NCBI GenBank assembly: GCA_016748015.1
Contig: JAAOMT010000003.1
Location: forward strand, 1,496,147 to 1,560,146
DNA length: 64,000 bases
Direction of reading: 5' to 3'
Source: Geosiphon pyriformis
Taxonomy: Eukaryota > Glomeromycota > Glomeromycetes > Archaeosporales > Geosiphonaceae
In this document: piece by piece, positions 2,726 through 52,589 of the stretch
How positions within the stretch are numbered: the first letter of the stretch is position 1
How the letters are laid out: each line of letters starts with the position of its first letter
Notes under the pieces: model-generated
Told to the model about the DNA's origin: nothing
The model's input: only the letters and a program-made list of their open reading frames with translations
The model's database searches: none
Made by a program: the position numbers and the translations under genes

Positions 2726-4180
2726 ATGATTCTCAATCATTTTTGGGAAAAAAAGAAAGGGTTCTTTGCAAGACAAATTATATTTCTTTTCATCCTTATT
2801 CTAGTTACTCTCGAAATTCTTATCAATGAAGTCGAAAAATATTACTTAACTAGAGCAAAATTATCTGAAAATAGGTTAACCTGGTTAAATAATCAAGACT
2901 TTTCTTATTTGTGGCCAGCAACACTCCAAAATAATAAGACCTTAAGTAAACGTGAATTAATAGCAGCTGGCCCTTCAAGAGGTTTCGGTGGCAGCTCTAG
3001 AAAGAAATCCCCTCCTAAAACACTAGTTACTGATCCGGAGATTATAAATTTATTAAAAACAATGGCGTTGTGGGCAAATATGCCGTATTGCACTCCTAAC
3101 CAGAAACTTGCAAAAGATTCCTTGGGATTCATTTGTAAGAAATTTCTTTTTGAAGTTTGTAATTATTTGATTCAAGGAAATATTATTTTCAAAGCTTAAA
3201 CTTTAATAATAAAATTTATTTTGCAATGAAAAAGTTGATATTTCACAACAAACAATAGGAAAGAAGGAAGGAATCGTAATATATTTCCGTGGTAGGTTTA
3301 GTAAAACTTCTCATTGATTCACTATAATTCAAGCTTCAATATTTTTTCTTTAAATTAAGGACCTGAACTTACTAGAAAGCAATGGAAGGCCAGAAAATTT
3401 AATTTAAAATCAGATCGTGGAAAAGATGCTTGGCCAGTAGATTCCCAATGGTTTGACGTGGCCAAAAATGGAGCCTTGGAAGTATTGTCACAGCGAATTG
3501 TAAACCTTACTTCCGAGCTTACTGGTGATACACTGTTCACATACTTTACAGGCCATGGAATAGGAGGAGGTAATTTATATGCATTTTGTGTAAAAATATA
3601 ACAAGGCAAATTAATTTTTATGTTTTTTGGATGATAGTATATGCCATATATTTAGCTATGTTAGCTGCAATGTGGGTAAAAGAAGATTTAATAGATCGAA
3701 TAATACGAAATGGTAAAAAAATAGATGTCACAGTTGTTACATTTGGACAACCAAGAGCGGGAAATTTTGATTTTGCACAGCGTGCAAATGCTTACATGAG
3801 GTCGAAATTTCTCAGAATTTATCGTGTGACTTACTCAAATGATCATGTGCCACAGCGACCATATTTAGAGTCGACTTCAAAGCCTTGGTTGCATACCGAT
3901 CGAGAATATTGGATTTCATTGAATTGTGATTGTTCGCAAAAAAAAGAGCCTGAATATGAACTTTTTGAATGTCCAGGATATTCTAATACTGATTCTAAAA
4001 AATACGGAGAAAATAAGGTAATTCCCTCAAGGTATTTTTTTTCGAGAGTTTAACTTTATATTTATTTTCTGACAACTTTAATAGGAATGTAATCTTGGTA
4101 CTGACGGTGCAAGTAACACAGCTAATTATGGTCCATACTTTGGAATCACTTTTGGAAAATGCGATATGCTTTTCCATTAA
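2726..4180 (+). CDS. Secreted class 3 lipase-like protein; nucleophile Ser replaced by Gly (copy A)
   Basis: Five exons can be joined in frame: 2726-3134, 3235-3291, 3360-3569, 3638-4017 and 4085-4180, giving 383 residues. All introns are GT-AG. A hydrophobic segment at about residues 15-30 looks like a signal peptide or anchor. The lipase-fold landmarks run in order: a Cys in ...MPYC (equivalent to AYC in other copies), strand IVIYFRG, the elbow GHGIGG followed by V, TFGQPR, SNDHVP, EYWI, a CDC pair and a final exon with GPYFG and GKC. In Thermomyces and Rhizomucor lipases the elbow is GHSLGGA and the catalytic His lies just before the YFG of the C-terminus. Here the elbow residue 222 is Gly and the His position is Asn366; Asp294 remains. 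An active hydrolase is therefore unlikely. The frame is intact, so I call it a coding gene, probably a pseudoenzyme. The first acceptor (AAAAG at 3234) is weak and was chosen because it alone keeps the frame. Confidence 0.82.
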
Positions 4181-7100
4181 TTTGATTTGTCTTAAAATCA
4201 AGTATTATGTAAGTGAGACGATTATCTAAAGAAGGTTCTAGAGTTATAATAACTTTATATTCTTATGAGAATCCTTTTCAATCTAATAGAATCTGATTTC
4301 ATTTAAATATGTATCATTTTTACATTGACCCAAAAATTCAAATTTACAAAATAGAAATCGTATAAAAGCCAGTTGCAACACTATTTTAATTTATTCAATG
4401 AAATCAAAATTATTATTATAATGTATGACGATTTTGAAAAAATTTTTATTGACATAAAACAGTGGTAATATTTGTTTTATATCGAACCAAGCCTTATGAA
4501 ATTTTTGATATATTTATATATTAATTATTTTAGCATAATAATGAAATACATTTTTAGAATTAAATTAATTTCTAATGCCGCCTCATTTAAAATTTATAAT
4601 CGTCAAAAAGCTTTATTAACAATATCTTTATAAAATATTGTTAAAATAATGTTTTTTTTAATGTATTTTAATTCATTCAATAAGTAACATATATTTAAAC
4701 AATTATTGTTATATTTACAAATTTATTTTTATAAAATTTTGATATTTATAATAAAATTCAATATATAAGTTTTTCATTTAAATTAATAATTATTGAAATT
4801 TTTTAATTTTACAACAGATTTTAAATTTAACTTTTGGAAAATAAATTGCTATTTAATAATACTAATTTTTAATAAAATGTTTAAAAAATTAAAAATAAAT
4901 AACCTTTTTGTTAAAAATACTGTATTTTTTTTATTGTCTATTTAAAAATAGTTTTATATTATTAAATAAAATTTATATAATATATTTTTACATTATTCAA
5001 ATTTCAAAAATAATATATTAATATAGTATTTTAAATTTGAATTATTATTTATGTTAACATATTCGAATATATTGATATTTTATAAATACAAATTTTTATT
5101 AATTGTAATTTCAATATGAATGTTAAAAATTTGATTTATATTAAAAATAACCACCCGAGTGGTTGGTTACGTGTAGAAAATGCATGATTCATGTCTATAG
5201 TAACTTTAATGTGACTAGTATAGTCAATGGAAAGACCACATCTGTCAAAACAATAAAAAAATAAAATCACTGCAACTCAAATATATAAAGAAAATCAGTA
5301 AAAATTAAATAAAGCTCAAAATTTAAATGACCTAAAATTTTAAATCTTTGGACCAAATTGCTTTCGCGTGAAAGAAATATTGAGCCTTGATAAAATTTGA
5401 TAATTCTAACAAATAATGATACTATATATATGCCCATATTTAATTTTCTCATAATTTATGTTTCACAATTGATTGCAATTTTAGAATCTTTTGAACCATT
5501 TTTTCTTCGATTTAATAAATCAAAGAACCCTGATCCTAATTTCCAAGTACAGTTTCCTTTCTCCACTATCTTCTACTTTATCACTATTTATGGGGGAATT
5601 ACTTCCCGTTCAAAAATTGCTTTCCGACGCCCCGAAGGGGTCGTAAAGACGGGATATTGGTTTAGTTTGCAATTAGCAATAATCTAGCTTCGGATAAATC
5701 CTCACTAGCGTAGATAATGCCCGTGCACAAAGATAAGGATAATTAATAGATTTATCCAATAATTTATAAGGATCGATGAAAAACCGGTTGGACTTCGTGA
5801 ATTGTGGGATATTTTGGACAGGATTTTCATGAAATTATCTTTATTAGGAAGAAGAAAAATGGGACACCAACTGTAAATGGGGAAAACGCCACTAATTTTG
5901 TTTCGTATCAGGCCTGATGACTATTAGAATTTGTTTCCTAGAACAAAATATCCCAAGAATGAACAATGTATTTGAACGTAGATTTTCAATATTTATGTTG
6001 CTAAAATGCCATCTATTTATAATTATATCGGCAGATGCTGGGATGCAAAAGATTTCAAACATTAAACGTATTCAAGGTTTACTCTTACTAAATTAAAGCA
6101 ATTAATGAATTCCCTGAACATGAAAACCAAAGAAAGTTTTCAAATAATGGTCTCTAATTTTTAGAAAAATTTGAAGAAATGAGTTGGTTTACGTACAAAC
6201 TTTAACTTAGTACACTTTCTCCAAAAAATTCAATTAAAAATACTTTAGTAAATAATATAAATAGGGAAATTTAAAATCAATTTTATCTATAAATAACGAG
6301 TATGGGATAGTTTGCAAGATTTTTAAATTTACATATTCCATTTTCAAGAAGTCAATTTGCAATCTCCTTTAGGAATCTACTAATAATATTTCGAATTTAA
6401 CCACTTTTTAAAGATTCCCCAATACTGAGTGAATTAAGGCTTTTAATTCTAATTGAAAGCCCGCCGCACAGCTTTACCAATTAAAAGAGAGTCTAAATTA
6501 ATATAAAAATTTGATAATTATAACCAATAAAGCTTTCAATTAAAAATTTTCATTTTCTGTTTGAATATTTTAAAACTCGATTGAAAAAGAGGAGGTGGAA
6601 CATATATTGTATTGAATAAATTTGCACCGATTATTTTTGATGACAAAATATAGTTTTCCTTAAACATTTCTTTCATCAGAAAACAAGAGCTTTTATTTTA
6701 TTATGAAGTCATAGAATGACAGAGGTATTTTCTTTGTGTAACTTTTCCACTGACAAACCTTCCCATTTTAGCTTGCTCGCAAGCGCGAGTATCTTTATGA
6801 TGTAAACTATCCTCTCATGACTATTTCATGCACATAGAGATTCAAAAGATGGAGTCGTAACATTAAGACTTCCTGATATACATAAAAGGGAACATACCAA
6901 TTACCGAGCCCGGAAATTTAAGGCTAAGTATTCATCGCCCTAAAAACTCGTAAACAATTGTTGAATGGTTACGGTAGGCTGCATTGGATATGAGGAGACT
7001 AAGGCCCTTTAGGGCGTTGTTTGATGATAGCATAAAAGGATTCGGCGAGATGTTCCTGGATCATGTGTTAAATATGACTTTATTTTGAAATTAATTGATT

Positions 7101-8203
7101 TCATTATTGAAAATTTGCTATCATAAAATTTGTTGGTATTCAAGTTTCCAATTTTTAGTAATCTAAATTGAAGAAAAGACGATCACAAGTTTATATATAT
7201 GGTTATTCCCAAACCTAATGAAATAAGAGTTTGAAACCTTCATCCGGTGAACCTTAGTAGCGAGACGATATATAACGTAATTTTGGTTCATCTTTAGTGA
7301 AGTGAAAGCACTGTTTGATACTTTTTAAGATTTTAGAACTTACCATAAAAATATTTGTTTATTATGACTCAAGATTGAGGACAATAACTTTTAATGATTT
7401 CTTCAGGGATAAGTTTAATAATTAATAATAAAGAAATTATCCGTGACTTCCAACCAAAGATCGATTTGATAACACTTTAATATGAGAATCTCTTTTTTTT
7501 ATGACTTCAAAAGCCGATAAATTTTTATTTTACAATTAGGATTTCTTTGAGATTGAAAAATTGAGTAAAGCGAAGATAATGATGGCCTTGATGGTTGAGC
7601 TAGCTAAATTTATTTGCATCTCCATTTAATAATTGAAGAGCCAATATAGAATGACCACTTAAATTTTGACTAGCTTGAGACTTGATAATATTGTCCTCAA
7701 TTATAAACAATGTAATGACAACATCGATTTTTCTATTGGTGCATTCGTTTTATTGTCAAAAAGTCTCGGAGCCCTCAATGTCGTAAGCTTTTGGATCAAT
7801 TTAAAGATTGTCTTAAAATATTTGCAGCGAGTTTCATTAGCAATAAGGATAAAATTAATATGAATTATCACAAAGAAATCCTATAGATAGATAAGAAATT
7901 GTTTTTGAACCAGGAAGCTTTGAAAATCGATTATTCTGTTCTTGTTATTCTTAAAATCATGAATTTTGTCAGGTGCAGAAACAGTGAGTTCAGCAAAGAA
8001 CACACAAAAACTCCTTCAATAGAAATAAAAAATGTAAATGTGAGTTTAAAAGTACATCTTTGTAATCAATTTAACCCTCAGAATCAGAAAGTAAAGAAAT
8101 TTACATACCCCACGCATCCAGATTCATCTTGAATTGAATCTGTTGAATTATTAAAAAAGTCATAGTTCACGAATGAATTTGTACCACCATCTAAATTTGT
8201 GAT
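4181..8203. other. Intergenic stretch without a recognised gene
   Basis: From 4181 to about 5150 the DNA is very AT-rich. From about 5380 to 7860 it is more complex, with a few GC-containing words and small hairpins (for example around 5153-5168, 5625-5640 and 7007-7018). Frames at 5397-5687, 7666-7863 and 7899-8132 lack a recognisable domain. The island could be a decayed mobile element, but I could not assign it to one. Confidence 0.4.
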
Positions 8204-8331
8204 ACGAAACGAAATTCCTTATTCCTCAAATTCCTTTATCAACTACTTCACAAATCTCTGGCAAAAATATTTCGCCTCCTTTAAATTTCACATCATACAC
8301 AGACCCAGTTGACCCATCTTCAACATACACA

Positions 8332-9030
8332 ATGCAAATTAGCTCATCAAGCAAAGTTCTTCTCATTGTCTCTATCGCTTTGGTCATTTTTTTCTCTCTG
8401 ATACTCCTCTTTTGCTTTATTTTCTCGTTTTTCCAAAGACGAAATAACAAGATTATGAATCGTAATCAAGGCCAAAATAATTTTGATAAGTGGAGCAGTC
8501 ATTTGATACCATTAGCAGTAATTTCTCGAGCTCATGAAATCGACGAAATGGAAAAATTTTCAATAGCTTCTACCATGCTTAGCGAATCAAGCAGTGAAAA
8601 AAAATCAAAAAAGTTGAAATCATTGCACATTTTAACAAAAGTGAAACGAATAAAAACTTATCCAAAATATAATACGGTCAGTATAGCTTGTCAGAATGTG
8701 AAAATTATTGATGCCGGAAGGATGCAAGGAGAAAGACACAAACCTTTACAAGTTTTAGAAATGAAGCAATCAGAGGAAGTTAATCAAAATGAGAAGGATA
8801 TCCAAATATTTTCGATCTCTCAAAATACATGTGTGAGTCGGACGGTCAATATTCTTGAACCAGCTGTTGTGCGACAAAATTTTATTTTAGCCGAGAGGGA
8901 CAGTTGTAAAACTGTTGATCTATCGGCGACGATGAAAAGAGATGAAAAAGAATATTTAAATGAGTTTTGTGATGAAGAAGTTCCATCTATCACTATAGTT
9001 GATATCATCAAAATGGTGGAAACCGAATGA
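8332..9030 (+). CDS. Single-pass membrane protein, function unknown
   Basis: Open frame of 232 codons from the first ATG. Residues about 8-34 form a strong hydrophobic helix, followed by QRRNNK, a positive-inside stop-transfer. The remaining 195 or so residues are hydrophilic, with Ser, Lys and Glu, and have no recognised domain. The frame stays open upstream of the ATG back to about 8204, and that stretch is rich in Ser, Thr, Pro and possible N-glycosylation sites (NIS, NFT). The real protein may thus have an extracellular N-terminus encoded by an upstream exon, with this ATG internal. I do not recognise the family. Wall-stress sensors and kelch-type surface proteins of fungi have a similar TM-plus-tail layout, but no sequence link is visible. 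Confidence 0.5.
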   Translation: MQISSSSKVLLIVSIALVIFFSLILLFCFIFSFFQRRNNKIMNRNQGQNNFDKWSSHLIPLAVISRAHEIDEMEKFSIASTMLSESSSEKKSKKLKSLHILTKVKRIKTYPKYNTVSIACQNVKIIDAGRMQGERHKPLQVLEMKQSEEVNQNEKDIQIFSISQNTCVSRTVNILEPAVVRQNFILAERDSCKTVDLSATMKRDEKEYLNEFCDEEVPSITIVDIIKMVETE

Positions 9031-13616: not shown

Positions 13617-15137
13617 TTAAATTTTCGCCTTTTGTTTTTGACATTTTCCCATCGTAACCCCGAAATAAGGACCAACATGGTTTACTAATGAAGCATTTAT
13701 CTGTGAATTTATGCATCCCTACATAATATCATATGAATACAACTCAATCAACAAAGTTTTAGTTTATAGCTATCTGAACTCAAAAGCCTTGATATTCCAA
13801 AACACTTACATTACTTTCACCAAGCATGAATGGACAGCTATATGCCTTTTGATTATCTTTTTCTTTTATCCAAATCTCCTTTCCAGGATGTTGATATTGT
13901 ATTTCTATATTTTCCGCAGGATTTTCAAATTTAACTGGGTTTCGAGGAACATAATCATCTGCATAGGTCACTCGCCAAGTATTAACCATACTTTCAGCAT
14001 ATAAGACGAACTCCTGATTTCCAATACGAGGCATTCCATATGTGTAGACATTTGTCACAATTGGTCTTGAAATAAGTTTGGTTTTTTGAATCGCTATAGC
14101 GGCTAGTAAGGCATAAACTGTATGAAAAAACCGAAGAAACTTGATTAGCTTCAAAAAAAAGTAAGAAAGAAATGAAATGAAACGAATAAAGCAATGCTTT
14201 TATCTTTCAATTACCACCACCCATGCTAAATCCAGTAAAATTAAAAGTATAGCCCTGGGTGAACTTTAACACTATGTTATTCAAAACATTTAATAAACTT
14301 TTTACGGCGGCAGGACTAAAACTCTCCGAAACTAATTTATTAATTTTCACATTTGCTTCTTGTTCAAATGGTACGAGATTTGTTTGATCATGAATGTATT
14401 TTTGGAGTTTTTTTTCATCTCCATAAAAGGCGATTGTAAGTACACCTTTTTCCACGGACGGTAATACGAGAACTTAAAAGCAACAGAATAAATTTTCAAA
14501 CTTTAATTTACTTAGATGATTTAAATTCTGAAAAACTGTGATTCTAACCTTTGATATTTTTGTTTATAGAAATTATTTTGCTGCTGCAAAAAACCTCGTT
14601 TGCAATTTGAGCATTTCTCTTTAGTATCTTCAATAACTTGTCATCTTTTGAAATTGGCCGAGCATTCTCATCGAAAATAGGATTAATAAAATTTTCTGAT
14701 ATTGTTAAAGGTTCTAAAATATTGAAGTAATCTTTTGATATATTCTGCTGCTCAACTGGTAAATTTATATTTTGAAGGTTTAGAAGTGGAACTGTAAAAT
14801 ATGATGTAGATTCGGAAATACTGAAATCATTTTCGTATGAATTTGGTGTTTCCGAATTCAGTATGTTGCTTGATGACAAGTGATCGTTAGGTAACTTGTT
14901 TTGGAAGATTTCTAATGCTAATTTATTTTCATCTGATTCTTCATTAAAAATTTCGGAATCATTATTGAAGAGTGTCTCGGTCTTATTTTTGATTGAAAAT
15001 AAAACTTCATTATAAAAGCTTGGGCTATAGATATTTTCATCTCTTTCTGAATTCCTTTTATCGTTTTTTGTCATAGGAAAGGCGCCAGTTTTTAAAAATA
15101 CTACTACCACCAATAATAACCATAGACTGATTTCCAT
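13617..15137 (-). CDS. Secreted class 3 lipase, long type, catalytic triad present (copy B)
   Basis: Exons, reading down the minus strand: 15137-14549, 14472-14215, 14117-13810, 13700-13617. They join in frame to 412 residues with GT-AG introns. MEISLWLLLVVVVFLKTGAF is a clear signal peptide. A Ser/Asn/Glu-rich linker of about 150 residues follows, then the lipase domain: a Cys in NEVFC, strand LTIAFYGDE, elbow GFSMGG-V, TYGMPRIGN, ADDYVP, EIWI and a last exon with NHVGPYFG and MGKC. Predicted triad: Ser279, Asp337, His393. The residue before Ser is Phe instead of the usual His. This is one of only three intact copies in the window with the nucleophile, so it is a good candidate for a secreted triacylglycerol or ester hydrolase. 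Confidence 0.85.
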
Positions 15138-15826: not shown

Positions 15827-17000
15827 TTAAATAGGATATAAATTATGACATGTTCCAAAATATGGTCCATAATGTGCCGTGTTACTTTGTCCTTTCGTTG
15901 AAAGATTACAATCCTAAAAATAAAAGGACTAGTTTTTTGAGTTATCTAATTATTTCAGAAAAATTCTTCTCTTTCAAAAGAATATAATTTTTTTTTAAAT
16001 ATTACCACATTTTCAATAAATTCTTTACTTCTTGTGCTTCAAGGGCATTCAAAAATTTCATAAGGCTCTTCGCTACTTGAATAAACCTGGCAGTCACAAT
16101 TTTTTAGCTATCTAATACTCTGTCTCATGATGCATAATCTTCAAGCGGAGCATAACTTCTCGTTGTTGTTGGGGAACGTGATCGTTTGTATGAGTGACGC
16201 GATATATAGGAAACAATTTGTTTATAAAATTAGCGTATTAATTATTAGCCATCCTTGGTTGACCAAAAGTGACGACAGTTACATCTAAGCTGTTTCCTGA
16301 TTGATTTTTTGTTCTAAATTTAATATTTAAAGATACTGAGAATGCCATCATTGCGAGTAAAACTGCATATACTGGATCAAAAAAATAAATAAAATGAAAT
16401 TGAAATAGCAAGTAATATTTGTTTAAACAAAAATATTTTAATTTTACCTCCACCAACTCCATGCCCAGTAAGAATTATTTTATAAAGTTTTTCCCTTTAT
16501 ATATTTGCTCAAATTGTTAATTCTTGCAATCATTCTATCCTTGATTTTATTAGTTTTCAGCCGTAGCCACTCAGAATCCACAGAGATTTCTTTGTAAGGT
16601 TCAAATTTTGTAAAAGAAAATTTTCTTGCATCCCATTGTTTCCTAGTCAATTCCTTTCCCCTCGCATATACAATTATCGCCTGTAATTCTTCATCTATCA
16701 CTGCATCAGCTGATTCAAAAAATGATTATTAACTTCCTGAAAGTGTCATTATGGTGGGTCTTGAAATAGAAATAAATATTTTAGAAAATACCTATATATT
16801 TTGGCTCGTCACCATCTATATAATAATCTGAAAAGCAGTAAGCTCGGTTGGCATGATGCGCGATCATTTTTAAAAAACTTAAGGTTTCTACATTGGTGAC
16901 CAATTTTTTGTTCGACAAATTTTTTATACTTTTGCCAAACCCTCGTGATGGCCCCATAGCAGTTTTTCTTTCGTGAATTGGGGATGAATATGTGATTGAA
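15827..17000 (-). pseudogene. Class 3 lipase pseudogene, short type (copy C)
   Basis: The minus strand holds recognisable exons in order. First is about 16990-16795, with GPSRGFG and HHANRAYC, very like copy A at 2726-4180. Next is about 16710-16450, with IIVYARG, LTRKQWDARKF and the elbow GHGVGG. Then comes 16370-16060, with VYAVLLAMMAF, TFGQPRM, HTNDHVP and NCDC. The last exon is 15915-15827, with AHYGPYFG. There are two in-frame stops: one right after QPRMANN and one replacing the Trp of EYWI. The end after GPYFG is also degenerate. The elbow already has Gly, suggesting that loss of the nucleophile preceded or accompanied decay. Exact exon limits are approximate. Confidence 0.75.
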
Positions 17001-19823: not shown

Positions 19824-21165
19824 TTAAAAAGAAGGCATAGACGCGAAATTTGCGCAATCTCGGAAAGTTGTTTGAAAATATGGGCCATAATGAACTGATT
19901 CCCCCCTTCCATCAGTTCCGTAGTTGCAATCCTGTTATTATAAAATAAAATATCAAAAATGGTACTTCTCGCAAGCAAAACTTAAATAATTCTTACCATA
20001 CTCTCTCCAACTCTGTCAAGATCATGATTCTAAAACGCGGGACACACATACACTTGAAACTGGCCCGAATTTGTTTCATTTTTCATATATCCCTTATCAT
20101 TTTCTGCAACAACTATACAATTGCAATCTCTTGTAATCCAGTATTCAATTTCATAATTTTTGGTTGATGAGGGACATGATCATTTTCATGAGTTACCAGC
20201 AAAAATTTTATTTGGCTCCTATTGAGATATTTTATAAATCTGATGTCTCCAATTTTCGGTTCACTAAATGTTACAACTGTCCAGTTGATTGTTTGATTTT
20301 TACTTATAGTGAGCGGAGTTGTTGATGCTACTTGTGAAAACATCTTTCTGCATAAGTGCAGTCATTATTGCATATACTAAAAAGAAGTTTTTTTTTTGAA
20401 ATAAAGCCTTGAAACTTTAGTGAAAATCTAATTAAAAAGTTTTATCACAAATTGAAAATAAGCTACACCTCCCCCAATTCCATGTCCAGTCAAAATTATT
20501 GTAAGATCTTCATTTTCATTTTTTCCCTCGTAAAATCAAGAATCGCCTTTTCAACTCAAGATTTCATCCCAAATGATATGTTCCATCCTTCAGTATTCAT
20601 CAAAGCACCCGGAGCTTTATCATTTTTCCCAAAATAGTGATAGATTAGGACGATGACGTTTCCATTCCTGGCGTGAAATTTTCTTGTATTTGCGAAGGAA
20701 ATAATCATTTGACTACTCTTTGGAGGTTCTATGTAGTCAGCTATATCGTAAAGTGGAAAACCAAGAATATAAGGACGCTGTATATTTTTAATCAAAAAAT
20801 TACTTGATCGATATTTAATCATAATGAGAATATCACAAAAATACTACATCGGAAATTCCTTTACCAATTCGATTATCTTGAGGAAAACAATAAGCACGAT
20901 TAGCATAGGATGCCATTCTTTCAAAAAAAATTAAGATATTTGAGTCAGTCACTTCAAGTCTTGGGGGTGGAACTTTCCTTAAACCCCGAAAACTTTTCAA
21001 AACAAAATCTTTGGGATTGTATCTTGAATCGGAAAGAAGAATTGGATGTGATTCTTCTAACGATTTAGGAGAGTCAGACTTTTTATTATCAATTAACTTT
21101 TCTAAATTTTGTATTCGATCATTTAATGAGATTCCCTCTTCATTAATAGCAATGAAGGTTTAAAA
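19824..21165 (-). pseudogene. Class 3 lipase pseudogene, short type (copy E)
   Basis: Minus-strand exons run from a Ser/Asn-rich N-terminus with SYANRAYC (about 21160-20860), through VIVLIYHYF and the elbow GHGIGG (about 20822-20470), then VYAIMTAL (20370), WTVVTF, HENDHVP and YEIEYWI (20310-20110), CNC, and a last exon with VHYGPYF ending at 19824. At least three lesions are visible: a shift in the AAAAAA run before the elbow (near 20520), a shift between DHVP and EYWI (near 20160), and a TAG after CPAF (near 20030). The last exon is open. The elbow has Gly, while Asp and the C-terminal His remain. Confidence 0.7.
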
Positions 21166-21715: not shown

Positions 21716-23293
21716 TTATTTGCAATTGCCCATCATTACTCCGAAATATGGACCATTGTGTATGTTTGCATACTCGGGATGCTTAATTGAATAATCCGGA
21801 TTAGAATTAAGTGAACAGGTCTATAAAAAAGTTGGAAATGATTAAATGTTTTTTTTACTGTAAAACTATCTAACATTATGTATAAAATTTCACATACCCA
21901 ATTCTCTTTCATTTTCTCTTCATTATAGCAGACTTTGGTGATATTTGAGCTGACGATGAAGTATTCTAATGCATGATGCTTATATTTTCTATTAATTATC
22001 CATGCTTGCCACTGCACTATCCTGTCAAACCGTTGCGTAATCCTGTAAACCATTAGTTTTTTTCGTCCAATTAGAGTATTGATATAGTCTGCAAAAGCCC
22101 TATTGCCAGTACGATATTGGCCGAATGTAAAAACTCGAATTTTTGCATATTTGAATGTTCTCATTGTGGCTAATGCGGCTAATAAAGCATATGCTGGGGC
22201 CAAAAAAATCTATTATAAGTATTTATAGTGCAAAGTTAAACCAAGAAAACAACAAGTGCAAGCTGATAATTTTATACCAGCACCAATGCTATGACCTGAA
22301 AAGTGAAAATCGGGCGCTAAATCCTTGCCGACAAGTTGCTTTAACTTTATTAAAATCTCCTTCTGAGATATTAAGAAGGCCTTATAAGTAAGTTCGTGAA
22401 CAAAGGCATTATTTACATCGGAATAAATTGACTTGTGAAAATCTTTTTCTTGTTCATTTGCTGGCCACTGAATTTGGTGATCTTTCTTTAAAAATTGAGG
22501 CAACATTTTTTCATCACCCCTAAATGCCACAATGATTTTGTTCGTTTGATCTTTAATCATCTTGACTTAAAAAAAAGCAATTTAAATCAAACCTAATTTT
22601 TAAGCAAGAAAATGTCAAATAAAATAGCAAATAAAATGACGTGGCAAAGACTCACAAAAAACTCCTCCCACAGACTGTGTAACGCAATAAGCTGACTTTG
22701 CATATATCGCATATTGCTTGAAAGTATCTAAAAGATACTGAGACTCAACTGATCTTCGATTACCAAAAATGTTATCAAATAACAGATCCCTGGCTGCTTT
22801 TGGATCCTCATTCTCATTGCTTTGTTTCTCTGTTGCTATTAACATTTCAGCCAATTTTTTATGATTGTAAGGTTAAACACTAAAAAAATTGGAAGTGTGA
22901 TTCTTCACCTTTATAAAAAAATGTTTCAGAGGAATCTTTATTCGAGCTACCCGTCAAGTCGCTTGATACTTCATGTTCTAAGTATAGGGATGAACTTTCT
23001 AAGAAATTCTTATCCAGCTTATTTTTATTCCAAGCGTTTTCACTTGCATCGTCAACAGAAAGACTAAAATCATTCAAGTCCAAGCTCTCCTCTATCGAGA
23101 AAAACACAGCGTCATCTTTATTATGTTCAGGATTGTATCCAAGGCCTTCATCCAAGTTTGGTAAAGTGATTTCATTTTGTTGATATGCTTTGAGAATAGA
23201 TAGTGAAATAACTTCTTGATTAGATAAAAAAATTGTTGAATAAGTTAATAAATAAAAAAGAATACGGAATAATTTTTTAATTTTCGGTTCCAT
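21716..23293 (-). CDS. Secreted class 3 lipase, long type, catalytic triad present (copy F)
   Basis: Five exons join in frame on the minus strand: 23293-22909, 22835-22656, 22565-22278, 22193-21898 and 21820-21716, giving 417 residues. The 73-bp first intron is unique to this copy and bridges an apparent stop near 22880. An N-terminal hydrophobic stretch (LFRILFYLLTYSTIFL) is the likely signal. An acidic, Ser-rich linker follows, then AKSAYC, strand IIVAFRGDEK, elbow GHSIGA-A, TFGQYRTGN, a degenerate RFDRIV for the Asp motif, HHALEYF, and a last exon with IHNGPYFG and MGNC. Predicted triad: Ser281, Asp341, His404. Phases are 1,1,1,0, as in the other copies. Probably a functional secreted hydrolase; its substrate is unknown. 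Confidence 0.85.
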
Positions 23294-24055
23294 TTTTAAG
23301 GGTTTTCGTTGTTTAAGATTGTGAACAATAAATAATTTATACTTCTTAGAAAATGGATAACATCATGTGATCGATCAATAAATATCTTTCTCAAATCAAT
23401 AAAATTTTTCCTTAGGCAAATATAGAGCTGAGCAATCTCAAAATCAGCCGCTTAAAGAATGATTTTCACGTTTTTAGTGATTTTAATCAGAAAAAGCTTT
23501 ATTTAAAGTAAGACATATACTAAAAAATAACCCACTCTACGCTTATAATTTAAGAGTCTATGCAAGATCAATTATGAGATGTGGTTTTTTCAAATTTTGA
23601 AGCATTTCATAATCATTATGTGAGGGTGCGTAATATTAGAGTGTTCTAATTCTTGACCGAAAACCCTAAATAACACTTAAAAATAAGACCCGATTACGTT
23701 AAACCGCATTGGTGACCCTTTACTCAATTTATTCGTGGCTATAAACTAAAGTTTTGCGCCACCAACCACAAAGATAATTCAGTTGTCTATTTGCCTGATG
23801 CAACTGCGACTGAATATTTGTACGTTCGATTGAATATCATATTGAATGCAAAATAGAATTTCAACAGTGGCAGGAAATCTTTTGAGAAGCAAATTCAAAT
23901 TAAATATATCGTTCAAAACTTTCCTCTGAATATACTGTTAATAATGGAAAAAAATCTAGAAACTTATTTGTAATTCAAATAGGCAAACACCTTGTCTCAA
24001 GCCCAATTACCTCATGAATTACGCTCCTATTTCCGGCTTTCATTCTTCATAATCT
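23294..24055. other. Intergenic spacer
   Basis: Separates the start of lipase copy F from the end of the kinase-like gene. No gene recognised. Confidence 0.5.
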
Positions 24056-26733
24056 TCATCTTTGGTTTTTTTTTGCGCCACAGTTCAATAAATTTTGAGG
24101 TGAAATCTTTTTCAGAGCACGGCCGATTACTTTAAATCTTAATTTTTGTTTCTTTACATTTCTTGTCGGGGATGGTTCAAGATTTCTTTGATTCAAAGGA
24201 CCGGTAGAGTTTGGAGGGTTATTGGGGGATAAGTTGCCATTATGGGACTCTTTTTTAGCGTTGTCTAAATTTTCTGCATGAAAAGTACGTTATTATTTTG
24301 AGAACCTCTTTAGGATCTGTAAATCACAAAATTTACCATCTATTATAACCCGGTTTTTATCTATTCTTGGTTCATAAGCAATTTTTGAAAAAGTCTTTTC
24401 TTCGTTTTGCTCAATGGAAATAAGGTTTGCTTCAATTTTTTCGCTATCAACCTTGGTGATTGAAGTATTTGGAATAGGTTTCTTAAAATTGTAAAATTTT
24501 GCCGTCGATTGACTGGATACTTTCTCCAAGCCTATTGGGTGACTAGGAATGTTTCCGACAACAACTAATGCAGTTTGAAGATGTAAAAGCATATCAGCGA
24601 AAAGATTCATTACAAAAAATTGAAAAAGGTTCATACTATTTTTCGAGATCTCAAATAAAATTTTAACCACCTTTTAAGGATTCCGACGAGAAATCTTTCT
24701 CGATGCTATTTTTTCCTTTGCACTCTTGAATCTTTTCGCTATTCTGCGAACTAAATGATTGATCAGATCCTGGGAAATCGTTGCTAAATATCTTTGGATC
24801 ACTTGCCCTATCTTGGGTAATAGTATCCTCCTCTTAAGGAAGAAGATATAAAATTAAGATTAAAGTTTAATTGTCTAAATTTACCAAATGTCGCAATCTA
24901 CAAACCTATGAAGCAATTTTGATCCAAATCAATGTTTTTCTCAGATTTTGTCGAGGCTTTTATTTGGTTCGCACAATTAGAACATGTTTGACCTTGAGTT
25001 GACAAAAGAATATCAAAGCTATTTTAGCCTTTGATCATAAAAAATCAAAAGACCAAGTTTCATTTCCTAATTACCTATCAAATTCTCATCATGATAGATT
25101 GTGTCGACTTGCGTCTCGATTCTGATTTTGATGGTCGCAGACGAGTCTTCTAAAAATTCTCTCTGATTAGCCGGCAAAGATTCTAAAATAGAAAGAAATG
25201 AAAAATCCTTCATAGATACACGCGTTCAATTATGTTTAGCCCTTTGAATTACCTTTTTTTGCTTCCGAATCGATAACATTATGATCATTGTCATTCCCAG
25301 TACTCGGAATCGAGGTCACAGAATTAAGCTCGATATGACTACAAGATAATTTTTTTCCTGATATTTTGCGTCGCTTACTTATTTTATTAAAAAATTCTGT
25401 TTGATGATTATCTTCAGCTTCCTCAACTTGACGAAAAATTGCAGCCGCTCGATTATGAAGTCGCAAATCCTCATCCCAAAATAATAAAATTTGAAAAATC
25501 TCTGCAGCCTTTGGCCGATTCAAGTAATCTCCATCCCAACATCGCTTCATTAGCTCAACAAATAATGGTGGTGTTTCTTTATGTACATCCGGGCGAAGCC
25601 CATCGCATATGCTGATGACCAATTGGTCGTCATAAGGAACTTTGCAAAATGGTCGTTTCCCATTGCTGGTCGATTCCCACATAAGAATACCAAAACTGTA
25701 AATGTCAGCGGCTTGTGTGTATTCGAACCCTTCCAAGACTTCAGGAGCTATATAAGGGACCATCTCCTTTAGGTATTTTTTTCCTTTCATATTTATTTGG
25801 TCTAAATATGATTGGGCGTTTTGATGTTCGTCATCGATGTGGATTAATGGTGTTCCATGTACTAGTAGTTCTCCAGAATTCAGGCCTCCATGAACCAGTC
25901 CATTGTGATGCAGAAATTTCAAATCAGAGGCAATGTACAAAAGATTAGCAATGATATTCTTCCAGTTCCAATTGCCAAATCCTCGATATATGTAGTTACT
26001 TAAATTTTCTGGCGTGAGGTTAGGGACATATTGAATTACCATTATATAGCTACTATTGGCCGGATTTCGGGTAACTCCAAGGCATTGAAAGGCCCTTGCA
26101 TGAACTTTGATCGATTCAATTATCAATGATGTCTAGAGAGAATGACAGTAGCATTAATAAGAGAATGGGTCCTGGCATCTTTATTTGATAAATTACCTCA
26201 TGAATAAGCTCTTCATCTTTGTCTGTGACATTAAAAAGTGGTTTTAATGCAACCTCAATACGAAAAGAATTTCGCTGCGATCGATTTTGAATAGTGAGCA
26301 AGTCAGAAGAGCGATTTAAAGTCCAAATTGCTTTATACACTGTTCCATAACCACCACATCCGAGGATTTGGATGCCATCCAAACGATGAAAATCAATCCA
26401 CTGAATAATGTCATTTTGATTGAGGGCCGTAAGTTGAGTATGTTGTATAAATTTATCAATCTCCCGATTACCACTGGACCAGTTTGAGAAAGATGCTGCC
26501 AAGCGTCGGGCATTACATGGCTGACACCACGCGTCGCCAGTCTTAGGTTGATAGCAATCCCCACAAATTCCAAATCTCAATTGTTTTCGTCTCTTTGCAT
26601 CGGTTGGAGCAAGAAAATCACCTTGAAAATGTTTAGGCATAACTTCCGGTAAAATTTTAAAGGGAGAAAAATTTAGAGTTGTAATTTTTAAAGCTAAAAT
26701 TTGCTTTTCAATGGCAAAGTGATAACTATCCAA
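24056..26733 (-). CDS. TKL-like protein pseudokinase with zinc-ribbon-like head and disordered tail
   Basis: Proposed exons on the minus strand: 26733-26197, 26132-25253, 25182-25075, 24832-24671, 24564-24337 and 24273-24056; they join in frame to 710 residues. Residues 57-73 hold CGDCY...WCQPC, a zinc-ribbon-like head, followed by SGNREIDKFIQ, the signature of a kinase family I know from Rhizophagus. The kinase fold follows: Gly loop 125-130, VALK with Lys164, IAPE at 307-310, DIYSFG at 322-327. The catalytic loop is broken. HRD is HGG (260-262), the Asn position is Glu, and DFG is DDE (279-281). Phosphotransfer is therefore unlikely. The tail is polar, with basic stretches near the end. The first two exons are firm (0.85); the tail exons rest on matching phase 1 and GT-AG sites. 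One extra open stretch (about 25010-24905, with CSNC) does not fit the frame and was left out. Confidence 0.7.
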
Positions 26734-27488
26734 TCAAAAAAACAGCTCATAAATTTTTGTTCGGCTTAGACAAAGCCAAATGTAGGTGCAAGGATCAGAA
26801 ATTTAGAAATATACCAAACAAAAATTCGGAATAGAGAGAAAAACTTTAATAGCCTCTTCTAAATTTAATGTTTCCAATATGCTTGGAATCTTGATTTGAA
26901 CAACTTATGAATTCTTTTGATATTGTCGTAGAAAATTATTTAAATAATAAATTTTTTTTATAGCTGACATTAAATAAGCATCTATTTTGGTAGAACATAT
27001 AAATTCTGTTAGTCTCAAAGCGTAATCAAATAAACTGCATAGAAAAAAGTATTCGAAACAGAAAGATGAAATGCCTCATATTAAATTGAATCGACTTTCA
27101 GGACCTTGATCTGAAATTCTAGATAGAACAGCAAAGTTAATGAATTACTTAATCATTTCCCTTCGTCTACAAAACGCCCAATTCAATTTGTCAAACTATT
27201 TTTGCAGAAGCAAATCCTAAGCTACTTTAAATTTTAGGGTACTTTTCTTTCGCTCGTGTATCTTTGCCATAATTTGAAGATGTTTCAGATGATAGCTTTT
27301 CAGCTTATTCAATAGAAACAAGTAGATTTTCATATCCAAATTCATTCCCCATACTTGCATATCTTCCTAATAAAGGACTGATTATCACTAAATTCGTTCC
27401 GAAGATCTATTTCTATTTGCTTTTGTAATAAAATAAATATCAAGCAGCATCGTATAAAATTTGGATTAACAAAGATAATACATGTCTC
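26734..27488. other. Intergenic spacer between divergent genes
   Basis: Lies between the starts of the pseudokinase (minus) and the lipase at 27489 (plus), so it should hold both promoters. No clear element was recognised. Confidence 0.45.
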
Positions 27489-31478: not shown

Positions 31479-31735
31479 TTAATATCCTTGATACAAGGTC
31501 AGCCCAAAATATGGAATTAACTTTATATTTGACTCCGGTTAATAAGCTTTAAAAATTTTTAAAGCATAAACTGGGAGTAAAAACAAAAAAGTCCAAAATT
31601 GCATGTAAATTTTATAATTCAAGAATCTTTTGGATAACTTACCTCCACCAAGACCATGACCCGTAAAATTTATCGTGCTACCCTCTTCCATATCATGAGT
31701 TACAACACTTTTGACCCAAGTTTTTGTTAATACTA
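31479..31735 (-). pseudogene. Class 3 lipase relic with middle exon deleted (copy I)
   Basis: On the minus strand, about 31735-31642 reads to INFTGHGLGG followed by the usual GGTAAG donor. About 31515-31479 reads PYFGLTL and then a stop, i.e. the end of the last exon. The roughly 120 bases between cannot hold the usual 300-base exon with the Asp motif, so that exon is deleted. The elbow has Gly. Confidence 0.6.
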
Positions 31736-32065: not shown

Positions 32066-33555
32066 TCAAAGATCACCACCAAGACATTCGCGCATTGTGA
32101 TGTCAAAGTAAGGTCCATAATGTGAAGCCATATATCGATCATTCGAGGTAGACTGACCAGCATTGCATTCCTTCATGAAAACATGCGAGCAAAAATTCAA
32201 AAATTCAATATTCGAAGCCATATTAAATTTGTCAAAATATTAGTTAAAAGTACAAACCAAATTTTCACCCGTCCTTTCATTTCTATTTCCCTTGAATCCA
32301 CGGCAAACAAAAAGAGCTTTATCATTTTCAATCAATGACATTGGATTTTTAATTGAACCGTCGCAATGACAATCAGGCTCCGAAATCCAATATTCCAATT
32401 CATGATGCTCAAATTCTCCTCTGGGGTTTACGTCTCGTGGCACAAAGTCATCAGCATTTGTAACTCGAAAGATATTCAAGTGTTTGTTCACATATTCTGC
32501 AAACTCAGAAGACCCAATACGCGGTTGTCCAAATGTCACAACTTTAATATCATAAACAAGCTCCGGAAATTTGTATTGGTCGTTGTGAAGAGCGTGTTTA
32601 AACTCTAAAGCTGCAAGTACAGCCAGGGCTTTGTTTTAAGATAAAAAAGTTTAACAGCTCAAATAATTCCAACAAACATGCGAATCATTGATCTTTTTTA
32701 TAATACATGATACATTTACATACCACCACCAATACCATGACCGGTAAAATAAACAGTTGGCAGAGGCTTTCCACTTATATAAAGGTTTTCGGTGGTTAAA
32801 AGGTGGTTAATTTTTCTAAAAAGCTGTTCCCTAATAAGACGAACCTCCGTATACCATTTGGTATCAATGTAACTGATTTTCTTATTTGGAAGTTTCAAAG
32901 AAAACTTCATCAATTGAATATTCCTTGCTTTCCACTCACCAACAGTCATGACTTTGCTTTTGAAATAGGCAACGATCACTTTATCCAGCGAATCAATGAA
33001 AACGTCAGCTATTTAGGAAAAAAAGATTTCAGAAGGGTAAAATAATGTTGCAGAGAGTAATGGATTTTGAGCTAAAACAAAACTATTATAAATTATAACT
33101 GAACCTTTAATATCCTTTCTCCTTATAACTTTTCCCACTTCATTATTATCCAAACAATAGCCCAAATTTGCGTACCTTGCCATATCACGCAAAAATGAGA
33201 TTATTTGACGATTTATAACTATCTGTTTTTTTGGATAAAGTGTCAAAGAACGCTTTTCTTTAGCACTTGTAGAGTTTTCATTTTGGCGTTTACCAAGTCT
33301 AAGATTATATTTAGCAAAAGAAAATCTGAGAGATGACACTTTTTTTCCCTTTCGAGTAATCACTAATGTAGTAAAATTATGTATGGACTGATGAGATATT
33401 TCTGAAAGTTTATGATCACTTAAAGTTATTGTCTTTAACAATTCAAAGTTATGAATTTTAGAGAGTTTCGGATGCAACAATCTGCAAAGGATTATTATAA
33501 AAATAAATTCCAAGGCGTGTAAAAATTTAAATTTCGCAAAATTAAATCCTTCCAT
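32066..33555 (-). CDS. Secreted class 3 lipase-like protein, short type; Ser replaced by Gly (copy J)
   Basis: Four exons on the minus strand: 33555-33105, 33008-32724, 32628-32258 and 32170-32066; 403 residues in one frame. A hydrophobic stretch at about residues 12-27 (LHALEFIFIIILCRLL) is a likely signal. Then a basic linker, ANLGYC, strand VIVAYFK, VGEWKARN, elbow GHGIGG-A, TFGQPRIGS, ADDFVP, HHELEYWI, a CHC pair and a last exon with SHYGPYF. Gly242 stands at the nucleophile position; Asp306 and His386 remain. Compared with copy A, the intron after the IVxYF strand is missing, so two exons are fused. Because the frame is undamaged while the nucleophile is gone, this is a good example of a maintained pseudolipase. 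Confidence 0.84.
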
Positions 33556-35743: not shown

Positions 35744-37184
35744 ATGAATTCTTTTAATGATTTTGCTATGAAAGCTTTCAAAATTTTATGGAGAAAAAGA
35801 ATTATCCCTCCAATATTTATATACTTTGCATTTCACATTCGGTCGCATGAAAATTTTGAAGGCTGGACAGTTTCTCATAAAGCTTTAAATATTCAAAATT
35901 TCTACAAACAGAATAAAAATCTCACTTCTCCCATCGTAGTTGATTGGAAAAATCAAAATATAGTCCCTTTCCATTTCAATCGAATCACAAAACGATCTCA
36001 ATCGCTTCCTAAAACCTTGATGGATCCTGAAAAAAGTTTAATACCGGTTTATAAAAATTTGGCATACCTTGCGAATGACGCCTATTGCGATGCAATAAGT
36101 GACCCCATAAACGGTTTGATCTTTTTAGAATAAAACAATTGATTTAGGTCAACTTCATATTAAACAGTATTTTTAACCAATTGTCATTAATTTTTACTGT
36201 TTAGTCGATTACGGATTTCTCGAAACCAAAACTGGTGGTGCGGCTTTAGTTGTGTACTTTGCAGGACCAGTAATTATTTGTCATTTCCTGAAATAGTATG
36301 TCAAAATCAAATTCACTAAATAGGAATTTCTTGACTTTTTTTTAGAAAAGAAAAAAAATTTTCTGGCGCACTGAGATTGATAGACAAATTTTATTTCAAG
36401 TGAAAGGCTTCCCAACATTTGACGATGATGCCCGTGTTAATAAACCGTTCTTGGAAATTATTGAATCCGTGTTTCCCAGCATTTTAGAGAAGATGCGGGA
36501 ATTGCTAAAAATAAAGCCCGAGACGAGGCAAATTTTTTTCGTTGGACATGCTATTGGTGGAGGTTTGGGGAAACTAAGAAATTTTTTTTTAGTTTCAATA
36601 AGGGAAAATCTGAAATAATTTATATTCTGAATTATCAGCATACGCCTCAATCGCTGGTCTTCGATGGGCTATTCAAAGATATGAGATTACTCAATTAAAT
36701 TTATGGCCTGAAATAAATATGGATGAAATGGGACAACATATTATCACATTTGGAGCTCCAAGAATTGGGAATAGCCGATTCAGTAGATTTGCAAATGGCG
36801 TGATTGACCATCATCGCATAACCCATGGAAATGACCATGTACCACAATCTCCTTTGGATCCATTGAAGTGGAACCATTTTGGGTTTGAAATCTGGATTGA
36901 ACCATTAGAAAATTGCGATTGTCCCGATGATGCTAATTTTCATCGATATTCCTATTGGGATTGTAATAATCAAATTCTTCAAGGTACACAAAGACAAATA
37001 TGGATTGAGAACTGGGCTAGTGAGAATATGGTAAGTTTTATCCAAAGAAAATTTTTAAAACCGATAAAATTTGAAAGAATTTTCTCTTTAGGAGTGTAAT
37101 AAAGGACAATCAATCATCAACGTTCCAGATGATTTGTTCCATGATGGGCCTTATTTCGACATTAGAATGGGTGTTTGTAGTTAA
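35744..37184 (+). CDS. Secreted class 3 lipase-like protein, short type; Ser replaced by Ala (copy K)
   Basis: Exons: 35744-36113, 36205-36269, 36346-36562, 36639-37030, 37092-37184; 378 residues. The ATG was chosen because it aligns with the second ATG of the duplicate at 49445. A hydrophobic stretch near residues 15-30 (IPPIFIYFAF) is a weak signal or anchor. Landmarks: ANDAYC, strand ALVVYFAG, elbow GHAIGG-A, TFGAPRIGN, GNDHVP, NHFGFEIWI, CDCPDD, last exon with FHDGPYF. Ala214 replaces the nucleophile; Asp283 and His365 remain. The long exon 4 carries an aromatic, Asn/Gln-rich insert after CDC. Sits in a 3.5-kb unit duplicated at 49079-52615. Confidence 0.85.
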
Positions 37185-38599: not shown

Positions 38600-39085
38600 T
38601 TTTACTAAAAACTTGGAAACTAACGGTTTATATTCACAAAAGAACAATGAGGCAAGATCAATTTATCGCACATCTTTAGAATGGGATAACAACAAGCTAG
38701 TTGGTGAAATTTGGTTGTAAAACATTCTTAAATGATGCCTTCCTTGGTCAGTAAACCGTTCAAGAAAATACTTCAATATAAAGATTCAAATTCCATTTTA
38801 TTGAAAATGAAATTGGGGAGGTAGATTTTCAGTTATTGATATTTCAGATAGATAAATATCACTTATTTAGAAAAAAGAATTATGGAAGCATATGCAATTC
38901 TAGCTGTCATGCAATCTAAATACATGGCGATACATCGGAGCGCCTCGAATTGGCAATTTAAACTTTGCAAAATTAGTCAACTGATTTTCAGCCCACATTC
39001 ATCGAGTGACAAACGCCAATGATTGGTTATCACGAAAAATGATGCCTAAAGGGCTATTTTTACATTCCAAACCGGAATATTGGCA
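38600..39085 (+). pseudogene. Class 3 lipase relic, middle exons (copy M)
   Basis: Matches the relic at 52357-52589, but lacks about 28 bases that encode the VVYFRE strand there. Downstream it keeps a degraded elbow (EIGG before GGTAG), then AYAILAVMQS, IGAPRIGN, NANDW and PEYW before a GTAAG donor at 39085. Stops occur throughout. The expected last exon is found only at 41944, some 2.8 kb away, suggesting an insertion in the last intron. Confidence 0.6.
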
Positions 39086-43061: not shown

Positions 43062-43874
43062 TCAAATAAACGTATGGTCTATCTTTCTCTCCTTTTTGAT
43101 GACCTTTTCGTTTTCGAGGTTAGCCAGCTGAATCTTGGCATTAAGATCATCACCCGCTGCAGCTTTCTTGTACCAATATAATGCCCGTTTATAGTCCTTT
43201 TTTGTACCCTGTGCCTCTCGAAAGCACTCGGCCAAATTAAATTGAGCACAGGGAAGACCAGCCATGGCTGCTGTTTGATACCAATAGAAAGCTTTGACAG
43301 AATTTTGCCGAGTACCTAATCCTGATTTGTAAAAGCATCCGACGTTATTTTGGGCACCTAAGTGACCAGATTCAGCTGATCTAAGAAACCATTCTAATGA
43401 TTTTTCCATATCCACAGTGGTTCCTATTCCATGATGATAACACCTTGCAAGCCGATATTGAGCATGTCCATTACCATCATTCGCAGACATCCGATACAAT
43501 TTGAAAGCTCTTTCTGGGTCTTTTTCCACGGCAAATTCAGTCTCGAAACAGATTCCAAGGAATAAATGACCATATGAGTAACCATTATCGGAGGCAACCT
43601 CGTAAGCTTCAAATGCCTTTATCGGATCAAAACATTCCTTGATATACTGATGACAGAATCCTAGGAGGCATCTAAACTGTCGAACGTACTGTGTTCTAAT
43701 CGTGAGTTTTTCAATTAGAGATTCCAGTGAAAGGTTATGACTTTCAAGCTGGTTTTGGATATCAAGCGCGATATCACAATAAGTTACCCCACGATTGATC
43801 GAGTCAAGGAAACTTTTTGCGATCTGGTTGAATGGACCATTGGTATAATTTTCTGGATGGAGATTTGAAATCAT
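43062..43874 (-). CDS. Sel1-repeat protein with frameshifted C-terminus
   Basis: 270 codons without an intron. Residues 1-80 form a helical head. From about 83 to 256 there are five Sel1-type repeats of 36 residues with the pattern AFxxY/W...A..G...AQ..L..CY..G.GT (for example AESGHLGAQNNVGCFYKSGLG). Such alpha-alpha solenoids are protein-binding scaffolds; in this fungal group they are common beside or fused to TKL kinases. Compared with the copy at 55372-56271, one G is missing in GGAGGAG near 43090, so the last eight residues here are out of frame. Beyond the stop the lost frame still reads YLSSASC...AQF as in the other copy. The C-terminal truncation is about 30 residues; the solenoid is intact, so the protein may still work. 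Confidence 0.8.
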   Translation of the reverse strand: MISNLHPENYTNGPFNQIAKSFLDSINRGVTYCDIALDIQNQLESHNLSLESLIEKLTIRTQYVRQFRCLLGFCHQYIKECFDPIKAFEAYEVASDNGYSYGHLFLGICFETEFAVEKDPERAFKLYRMSANDGNGHAQYRLARCYHHGIGTTVDMEKSLEWFLRSAESGHLGAQNNVGCFYKSGLGTRQNSVKAFYWYQTAAMAGLPCAQFNLAECFREAQGTKKDYKRALYWYKKAAAGDDLNAKIQLANLENEKVIKKERKIDHTFI

Positions 43875-44400
43875 TTGAATTTGATGGATTTTTTGTTATT
43901 ATTAAGATTTGATGATTTTTGGTTTTCGTTTTATTATTGAAATTACGGCTTTTTTGTTATCATTTGAATCTAAAAAATCAACTATATTTATAGAGGATTC
44001 TTAATAATTCCTAAATAGGCGCGTAAATAATGAAAAGGTACAAGATCCAAGTTGCTGGAGACAGTGAGAAAATTGTCTATTTTCGGTTAGATGTTTCTTT
44101 GTAACGTTGTAGATCTCGGGGTCAAAATTATTAAAATTGTTGCAGCTGGGTTGAGATAAAGCTTAATTTTTGAGCACAATTTTTACAGGAGTAAAATGAT
44201 GATCATACAACAGATATGTTTTGATACTTTATTACCAAAAAGATTTATATTTAATCTTGATAACAGATTGTATTTTTAAAATAATCCTCTACCCATTAAA
44301 AAATGTCAATGGGTGTAACTATTTTTAGAAATTTGGTTCATATTCTAACGTTGCGGGGCCTAGACTTTTCGACAATATGATTTAGATTATAAATCCTTTT

Positions 44401-49444: not shown

Positions 49445-50899
49445 ATGTTATGGTGTTTGAAGAGCATAATGAATTCTTTTAAAGATTATGCCATAAAAAC
49501 TTTCAAAATTTTGTCAAGAAAAGAAATTTTCGTCTCATTATTTATATACGTTGCATTTCACTTTTGGGCGCATGAAAATTCTAAAGGCTGGATAGTTTCT
49601 CATAAACCTCTACAAATTCAAAATCTCTTTAAACAAGATGGAAATCTCACCTTTCATATCGTAGTTGATTGGAAAAATCAAATGAGAGTTCCTTTCCAAT
49701 TCAAACGAATCACCAAACGATCTCAATCGCTTCCTAAAATTTTAATAGATCCTGAAAGATCTTTTTTACCACTTTATAAAGAGTTGGCATACTTTGCAAA
49801 TAATGCCTATTGCAATTTAGAAAATGGATTTATAAACGGTTTGATCCTTTTAGAATAAAACAATTGATTTAGGTCAAAAACTATTTTTTGCTATTTATCT
49901 TAAATTTTTACTCTTCAGTTGAATTCGGATTTTTCTCAAGTACAGGCTTTGATACGGCTCTCGTTGTGTACTTTGCAGGATCAGTAATTATTTGTCATTT
50001 CCTGAAATAACATGTCAGAATCAAATTCACTAAAAAGGACTTTCTTTATTTCTTTCTTAGAAAATAAATAAATCTTCCTGGCCTAATGTGATTGATAGGC
50101 AAATTTCATTTCAAGTGAAAGGCTTCCCAATATTTGACGATGCTCGTGTTAGTAAACCATTCTGGGAAACTACTCAATCGGTGTTTCCCAGAATTTTAGA
50201 AAATATTCGGGAATTTTTAAAAACAAATCCAAAGACGACGCAAATTTTTTTCACTGGGCATGCTATTGGTGGAGGTTTGTGAAACTAGGAAATTTTTTTT
50301 AGTTTCGATAAGTAAAAATCTGAAATACTTTTATATTTCTGAAATACCAGCATATGCCTCAATAGCTGGTATCCAATGGGCTATTCAAAGATATGAGATT
50401 AATCAATCGAAGTTATGGCCTGAAATAGATCTGAATAAAATTGGTCACCATATTATCACATTTGGAGCTCCGAGAATCGGGAATAGCCGATTCAGTAGAT
50501 TTGCAAATAACGCCATTAGACATCATCGCATAACTCATGGAAATGACCATGTCCCACACTTTCCTTCGGATCCATTAAAGTGGAACCATTTTGGGTTTGA
50601 AATCTGGATTGAGCCATTAGAAAATTGCAATTGTCCCGATGATGATGTTAATTTTTATCCATATTCCTATTGGGACTGTAATAATCAATTCCTTGAACAA
50701 ACCCAAAGACAAATATGGCTTGAGAAATCGACTAGTGAGAATATGGTAAGTTTTATCCAAAGAAAATTTTTAAAACCGATAAAATTTGAAAGAATTTTCT
50801 CTTTAGGAGTGTAATAAAGGACAATCAATCATCAACGTTCCAGATGATTTGTTCCATGATGGGCCTTATTTCGACATTAGAATGGGTGTTTGTAGTTAA
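49445..50899 (+). CDS. Secreted class 3 lipase-like protein, short type; Ser replaced by Ala (copy L)
   Basis: Exons: 49445-49838, 49919-49983, 50061-50274, 50351-50745, 50807-50899; 386 residues from the first ATG, or 378 from the ATG at 49469 that matches copy K. Landmarks: ANNAYC, strand ALVVYFAG, elbow GHAIGG-A, TFGAPRIGN, GNDHVP, NHFGFEIWI, CNCPDD, last exon FHDGPYF. Ala221 stands in the nucleophile position; Asp290 and His373 remain. The last intron and last exon are base-for-base the same as in copy K (35744-37184), although exon 1 has diverged. All splice sites are conserved between the two, which supports both models and suggests that both frames have been maintained. Confidence 0.86.
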
Positions 50900-52356: not shown

Positions 52357-52589
52357 TTGGAAACTACCGGAGCCGTTGTTTATTTCCGAGAGCCTATATT
52401 CACAAAAGGACAATGGAGTGCAAGACCAATTTATCACACATATTTAGAATGGGATAACAACACGCTATTTGGTGAAATTTTGATGCAACATATTCCTAAA
52501 ATGATGCCCTTCTTGGTCAGTAAACTGCTCAAGAAAATACTTCAATAAAAAGATTCAAAATTCATTTGTTAAACATGGAATTGGAGGAG
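52357..52589 (+). pseudogene. Class 3 lipase exon relic (copy N)
   Basis: Open frame with AVVYFREPIF, KGQWSARP and a helix, matching the strand-to-elbow exon of the short type. A TAA and frame shift come before VKHGIGG and the usual GGTAAA donor. Gly at the nucleophile position. No middle exon follows; a matching last exon lies inverted at 57067-57131. Confidence 0.65.

Follow-up and report, generated by a model that had tools for sequence, protein, structure and literature searches.

A class 3 lipase-fold gene family of Geosiphon pyriformis with a mostly replaced nucleophile serine: candidate maintained pseudolipases

Lipase genes with and without serine in one cluster

Lipases need the serine of the nucleophile elbow for catalysis. 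A preliminary description of 64 kb of the Geosiphon pyriformis genome (JAAOMT010000003.1, C401:1496147-1560146; this whole stretch is referred to as the window) reported a cluster of class 3 lipase-like genes, most of which have lost this serine. Are such genes maintained, and if so, for which function? By using HMMs made from other genomic copies together with direct reading of the DNA, 12 class 3 lipase elbows were found in the window: three with Ser (B, GFSMG; F, GHSIG; H, GHSLG), six with Gly (A, C, E, G, I, and J), two with Ala (K and L) and relic N with KHGIGG, exactly the residues reported before. A thirteenth elbow, the degraded GDSFA of a presumed copy D, was not supported, since the string at 19329 (+) lies between stops and gave no lipase HMM match even at E<=10. 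All 12 elbows end in GGT, the last two bases of which are usable as a donor GT, and a phase-1 intron (G before the junction, GT after it) directly follows the elbow; the protein reads GHxxGG and then Ala or Val.

The frames of copies A, J, K, and L had been considered undamaged and, indeed, all four could be spliced into proteins of 378 to 403 amino acids (aa). Copy A (2726-4180, + strand; splice model, Pfam, and alignment) is an intact serine-less gene with five exons (2726-3134, 3235-3291, 3360-3569, 3638-4017, and 4085-4180; the exon 1 donor is uncertain, 3135 or 3159) and codes for 383 aa, with the elbow GHGIGG (Gly codon GGA at 3557-3559), Asp in SNDHVP and His in LHTDREYW. The same evidence gives copy J (32066-33555, - strand) as an intact serine-less gene of 403 aa, with the elbow GHGIGG (GGT at 32734-32736), Asp in ADDFVP and His in EHHELEYW. 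Copy K (35744-37184, + strand; splice model and Pfam) is an intact Ala copy of 378 aa with introns at 36114-36204, 36270-36345, 36563-36638, and 37031-37091, the elbow GHAIGG (GCT at 36550-36552), Asp in GNDHVP and His in NHFGFEIW. Copy L (49469-50899, + strand; splice model; introns at 49839-49918, 49984-50060, 50275-50350, and 50746-50806), also an intact Ala copy of 378 aa with GHAIGG (GCT at 50262-50264), is a recent paralogue of K, the final 300 bp being 96 to 100% identical. According to the splice models and the alignment, Asp is kept in all four, as claimed, and so is the C-terminal His, which had been conceded to only three of them. Introns and Cys are likewise kept across the genes, along with the fold motifs.

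Ser is present in B, F, and H, all three of which had been described as intact. Copy B (13617-15137, - strand; splice model and Pfam) is an intact gene; it codes for 418 aa and has the elbow GFSMGG (AGC at 14225-14227) and FYGD at the oxyanion position. The splice models of F (21736-23303, - strand; GHSIGA, AGC at 22288-22290, FRGD) and H (29313-30835, + strand; GHSLGS, AGC at 30296-30298, FRGD) are only partial, and the last exon of H is present (GPYFGYTMGKCQ). The five spliced proteins of A, J, K, L, and B share the last exon GPYF[DG]I/V.M..C, and the scores against Lipase_3 (PF01764; cut-off, 22 bits) were 66.1 bits for K, 55.5 for A, 76.8 for J, and 70.2 for B.

The other serine-less copies are broken. 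Copy C (16169-16487, - strand; GHGVGG, codon at 16458-16460) is a decayed Gly copy with an interrupted post-elbow exon, and copy E (20158-20520, - strand; GHGIGG, codon at 20479-20481) is a decayed Gly copy as well. Copy I (31641-31679, - strand; GHGLGG, codon at 31653-31655) and relic N (52505-52591, + strand; Gly codon at 52577-52579) consist of elbows downstream of which no lipase exon was found. Copy G (27486-28733, + strand; GHGLGG, GGA at 28401-28403) has lost its frame: the Asp exon hits a stop soon after Asp, and neither sequence reading nor splice modelling found the His downstream of the Asp region; it probably decayed recently. Thus, the intact serine-less genes are only A and J (Gly) and K and L (Ala). 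HMM and frame reading also gave a relic of a post-elbow exon (GAPRIGNLNFAKLVN...NANDWLSRK) at 38937-39032 (+), with which no elbow was found.

Further features of the window are a pair of Sel1-repeat proteins near K and L that closely resemble each other and are encoded in opposite orientations (43065-43895, -, and 55282-56268, +), a protein kinase gene of a type expanded in Glomeromycotina (25239-26733, -), in which the kinase domain was recognized and the upstream part has no Pfam match, and an open frame of 275 aa (8203-9030, +), which contains a single, strongly hydrophobic segment and is without a Pfam match. The Sel1 and kinase genes are in keeping with a genome of the Glomeromycotina. 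The region from 58500 to 64000 has a GC content of 11 to 18% with short AT-rich tandem repeats, the remaining window about 24 to 34%.

Active-site residues across the genome

The AT-rich assembly (124.7 Mb, 406 contigs) was searched for GHxxGG followed by a phase-1 splice donor, a census that includes relics. There were 327 matches, compared to 2 for the reversed pattern used as a control, and an exon with TFGxPRxGN was located about 80 to 270 bp downstream in 88 of 92 elbows examined. Together with the Lipase_3 scores, these numbers demonstrate that the elbows are not chance matches. The nucleophile site was Gly in 224, Ala in 39, and Ser (AGY) in 33 matches; a slightly wider pattern added at most 6 Ser encoded by TCN, giving 33 to 39 Ser in total. 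The remaining 25 to 31 have other residues, the listed ones including Phe, Tyr, Asp, Asn, Ile, Cys, and Glu codons. Hence, Ser is replaced in more than 80% of the strict matches. L037 and L038 on C28 and L051 on C96, in which this site is occupied by Phe, Tyr or Asp, otherwise look intact. The Gly copies L052 and L053 (C96:296163-299183 and C96:318116-321136) lie in opposite orientations and arose by a very recent duplication: a stretch of some 1,400 bases is about 100% identical, and the sequences outside it are unrelated. When copies were taken in contig order and not picked for intactness, 26 of 29 had both exons open up to and including the His motif (25 by the automated count; L040, whose motif reads ETW, was added by hand).

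To see what is left of the active site, 77 copies, 51 of them serine-less, were aligned; Ser copies were sampled preferentially and are over-represented in alignment and tree, and therefore class fractions were taken only from the pattern counts. The triad Asp was kept in 50 of the 51 serine-less rows (42/42 Gly, 5/5 Ala, 3/4 other) and the triad His in all 50 that were readable (41/41 Gly, 5/5 Ala, 4/4 other). Both are among the least variable columns, and the E and W after His are kept as well; none of the conserved columns held an invariant residue that could be a new nucleophile. A profile of the five spliced window proteins, aligned with the lipase of Thermomyces lanuginosus, placed the G/A at the nucleophile, the D of ND.VP at the triad Asp and the H of H...E.W at the triad His. 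Among the profile matches, PDB chain 1gt6 carries GHALGG, so that a lipase structure with an Ala elbow has been solved; we take it to be the oleic acid complex of the S146A mutant.

The oxyanion hole is less well kept. Thr follows FRG in all five copies of one Ser clade (the FRGT clade). Elsewhere, most Ser copies included, the position is occupied by Pro, Lys, Asp, Glu, Ile, and others in a gappy column, with Ser in 2 of 42 Gly rows; the splice models read FAGP in K, FAGS in L, and FRGP in A. The serine-less copies had been placed beside active relatives. Ser copies do exist, but since most of those outside the small FRGT clade lack the usual oxyanion-hole Thr or Ser, the term may cover only a few genes.

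Selection on the two exons and possible functions

Ser and non-Ser copies are interleaved in the tree, and parsimony requires 15 changes, an exact count that is weakened by gene conversion. The idea that Ser was lost just once, long ago, was rejected by the AU test (P = 5e-8 with the non-Ser copies as one clade, P = 4.6e-6 with the Gly copies as one clade); thus, the nucleophile site switched repeatedly. One base separates the codons of the Ser copy L050 (AGT) and the Gly copies (GGT) around it, and the same is true for the Gly copy L033 (GGT) among Ala copies (GCT).

Near-neutral dN/dS, together with missing transcripts, had been named as evidence that would speak against maintenance. For each clade and exon, maximum likelihood codon models with omega free or fixed at 1 were compared in three mostly serine-less clades and the FRGT clade. 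In the second exon, which carries Asp and His, omega was 0.42 in the K/L clade (2dlnL, 6.05), 0.48 in the C96 clade (6.83), and 0.50 in the C100 clade (6.31), and omega = 1 was rejected in all three. This exon is under purifying selection. The elbow exon gave 0.94 (0.05), 0.81 (0.63), and 0.68 (5.34), respectively, and was not different from 1 in the first two clades; since omega is 0.68 to 0.94, this exon is relaxed or diversifying. The FRGT clade had values of 0.18 and 0.13 (2dlnL, 62.9 and 121), a contrast that is only indicative, the clades being of different ages. Pairwise estimates agreed in direction. In some pairs, the elbow exons have diverged but the second exon and the intron next to it are near identical; in L034 and L067, the second exons are identical and the first exons are at a dS of 0.35. 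Such pairs point to gene conversion or exon exchange, which makes trees and omega values approximate.

If the family were only the product of fast duplication under weak selection, with most copies decaying and conversion refreshing the motifs, one would expect broken copies such as C, E, I, N, and G, an elbow-exon omega near 1 and conversion tracts, and all of these are seen. However, about 90% of the copies not picked for intactness are open, Asp and His are invariant across pairs with a dS well over 1 and the nucleophile site is mostly limited to G/A/S, and we regard this explanation as improbable. We give equally little credit to a family that diversifies as surface or recognition proteins (decoys, adhesins, or proteins that recognize self or a partner), for which the fold is only a scaffold and lipid binding irrelevant. 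The higher omega of the elbow exon versus the next exon, the second exons that were exchanged or converted among paralogues (L034 and L067, for example) and the clustered duplications would fit, but a mere scaffold does not need near-invariant active-site Asp, His, Glu, and Trp.

The near-invariant Asp and His could alternatively mean that catalysis is retained. The main alternative to a binding pseudolipase is an enzyme without serine, comparable to those alpha/beta-hydrolase-fold enzymes that do not use serine. The His-Asp dyad would serve as general base, with water or a group of the substrate as its target, and space would be provided by the small elbow residue. The retention of both residues where Ser is lost, the E and W after His and purifying selection on their exon are compatible with it. 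Nevertheless, the usual oxyanion-hole Thr or Ser is missing in most copies, the conserved columns offer no new invariant nucleophile, and Asp and His also serve structural hydrogen-bond roles, so that we consider such enzymes unlikely. Somewhat more doubtful still is the extended version, hundreds of class 3 lipase-fold enzymes with a His-Asp general base in place of the Ser nucleophile and an elbow/lid exon that sets the substrate of each copy.

Asp and His are kept almost without exception though Ser is lost, and the serine-less genes are thus probably kept to do something other than digest fat in the ordinary way. A lost catalytic residue in a maintained gene is one feature of pseudoenzymes, and it was found here: fold motifs, intron layout, Cys, Asp, and His persist in the serine-less genes, most of the frames are open and the second exon is constrained. 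This upholds the earlier view of a maintained pseudolipase family. For a more specific reading, a secreted, fast-diversifying family of pseudolipases to which lipids or esters bind but by which they are not hydrolysed in the ordinary way, we see about an even chance. It would be a lineage-specific, repeatedly duplicated family of the class 3 lipase fold that has mostly given up the Ser nucleophile, with proteins that appear to be secreted, judged by eye from their hydrophobic N termini. A pocket assumed from homology, with the conserved Asp and His in its lining, would bind an acyl chain or ester and hold or deliver it rather than cleave it; the variable, fast-changing elbow/lid exon would tune the ligand or partner, and the constrained second exon could spread between paralogues. 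Against this pseudolipase reading stands the elbow exon, whose omega is not different from 1 in two of the three clades, so that constraint may be absent from part of the protein.

In Glomeromycota, no fatty acid synthase genes were detected (PMC11134847), which makes lipid capture plausible for an obligate symbiont, and we put forward as a hypothesis that the role of the family is tied to this lack. If lipid binding or transport is true, the family may bear on the lipid supply of a cyanobacteria-associated fungus in a lineage without fatty acid synthase. In any case, it parts what selection keeps (Asp and His) from what selection does not keep (Ser), and its many natural Ser/Gly/Ala swaps, close pairs included, are material for probing the remaining lipase active site.

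Comparison with known lipase-fold proteins

In the papers searched on pseudolipases, Geosiphon lipases and Glomeromycotina lipase expansions, with the Geosiphon genome paper outside the scope, the family is not described, and we know of no other genome with a lipase-fold family this large that usually lacks the nucleophile but keeps the remaining triad near invariant. The best PDB profile matches were fungal class 3 lipases, and the family shares fold motifs, motif order, Asp, His, and Cys with those of T. lanuginosus, Rhizomucor miehei, and Rhizopus (PF01764). Unlike them, it is mostly without Ser and usually without the oxyanion Thr or Ser, and it has a long pro-region and a conserved extra last exon (GPYFDI.M..C).

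Insect yolk proteins, neuroligins, and plant EDS1/PAD4/SAG101 are lipase-fold pseudoenzymes in which the nucleophile is changed or unused and the role nonhydrolytic, and they are encoded by single genes or small families. The Geosiphon family resembles them in that the hydrolase fold is kept with a changed nucleophile, and a nonhydrolytic role may be common to both; EDS1 and PAD4 chains were among the PDB profile matches. It differs in having hundreds of copies in one genome with a near-invariant Asp-His pair, and in the window proteins of 378 to 418 aa no EP domain, as in EDS1/PAD4/SAG101, was found, Lipase_3 being the only Pfam match. The alpha/beta-hydrolase-fold dioxygenase HOD works with a His-Asp dyad and without a serine nucleophile. 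As in HOD, His and Asp are kept and Ser is dispensable, but HOD belongs to a different family. In its Lipase_3 score, Asp, and His, the serine-less Geosiphon family is like the class 3 lipases, and in its nucleophile and, mostly, its oxyanion position it is unlike them.
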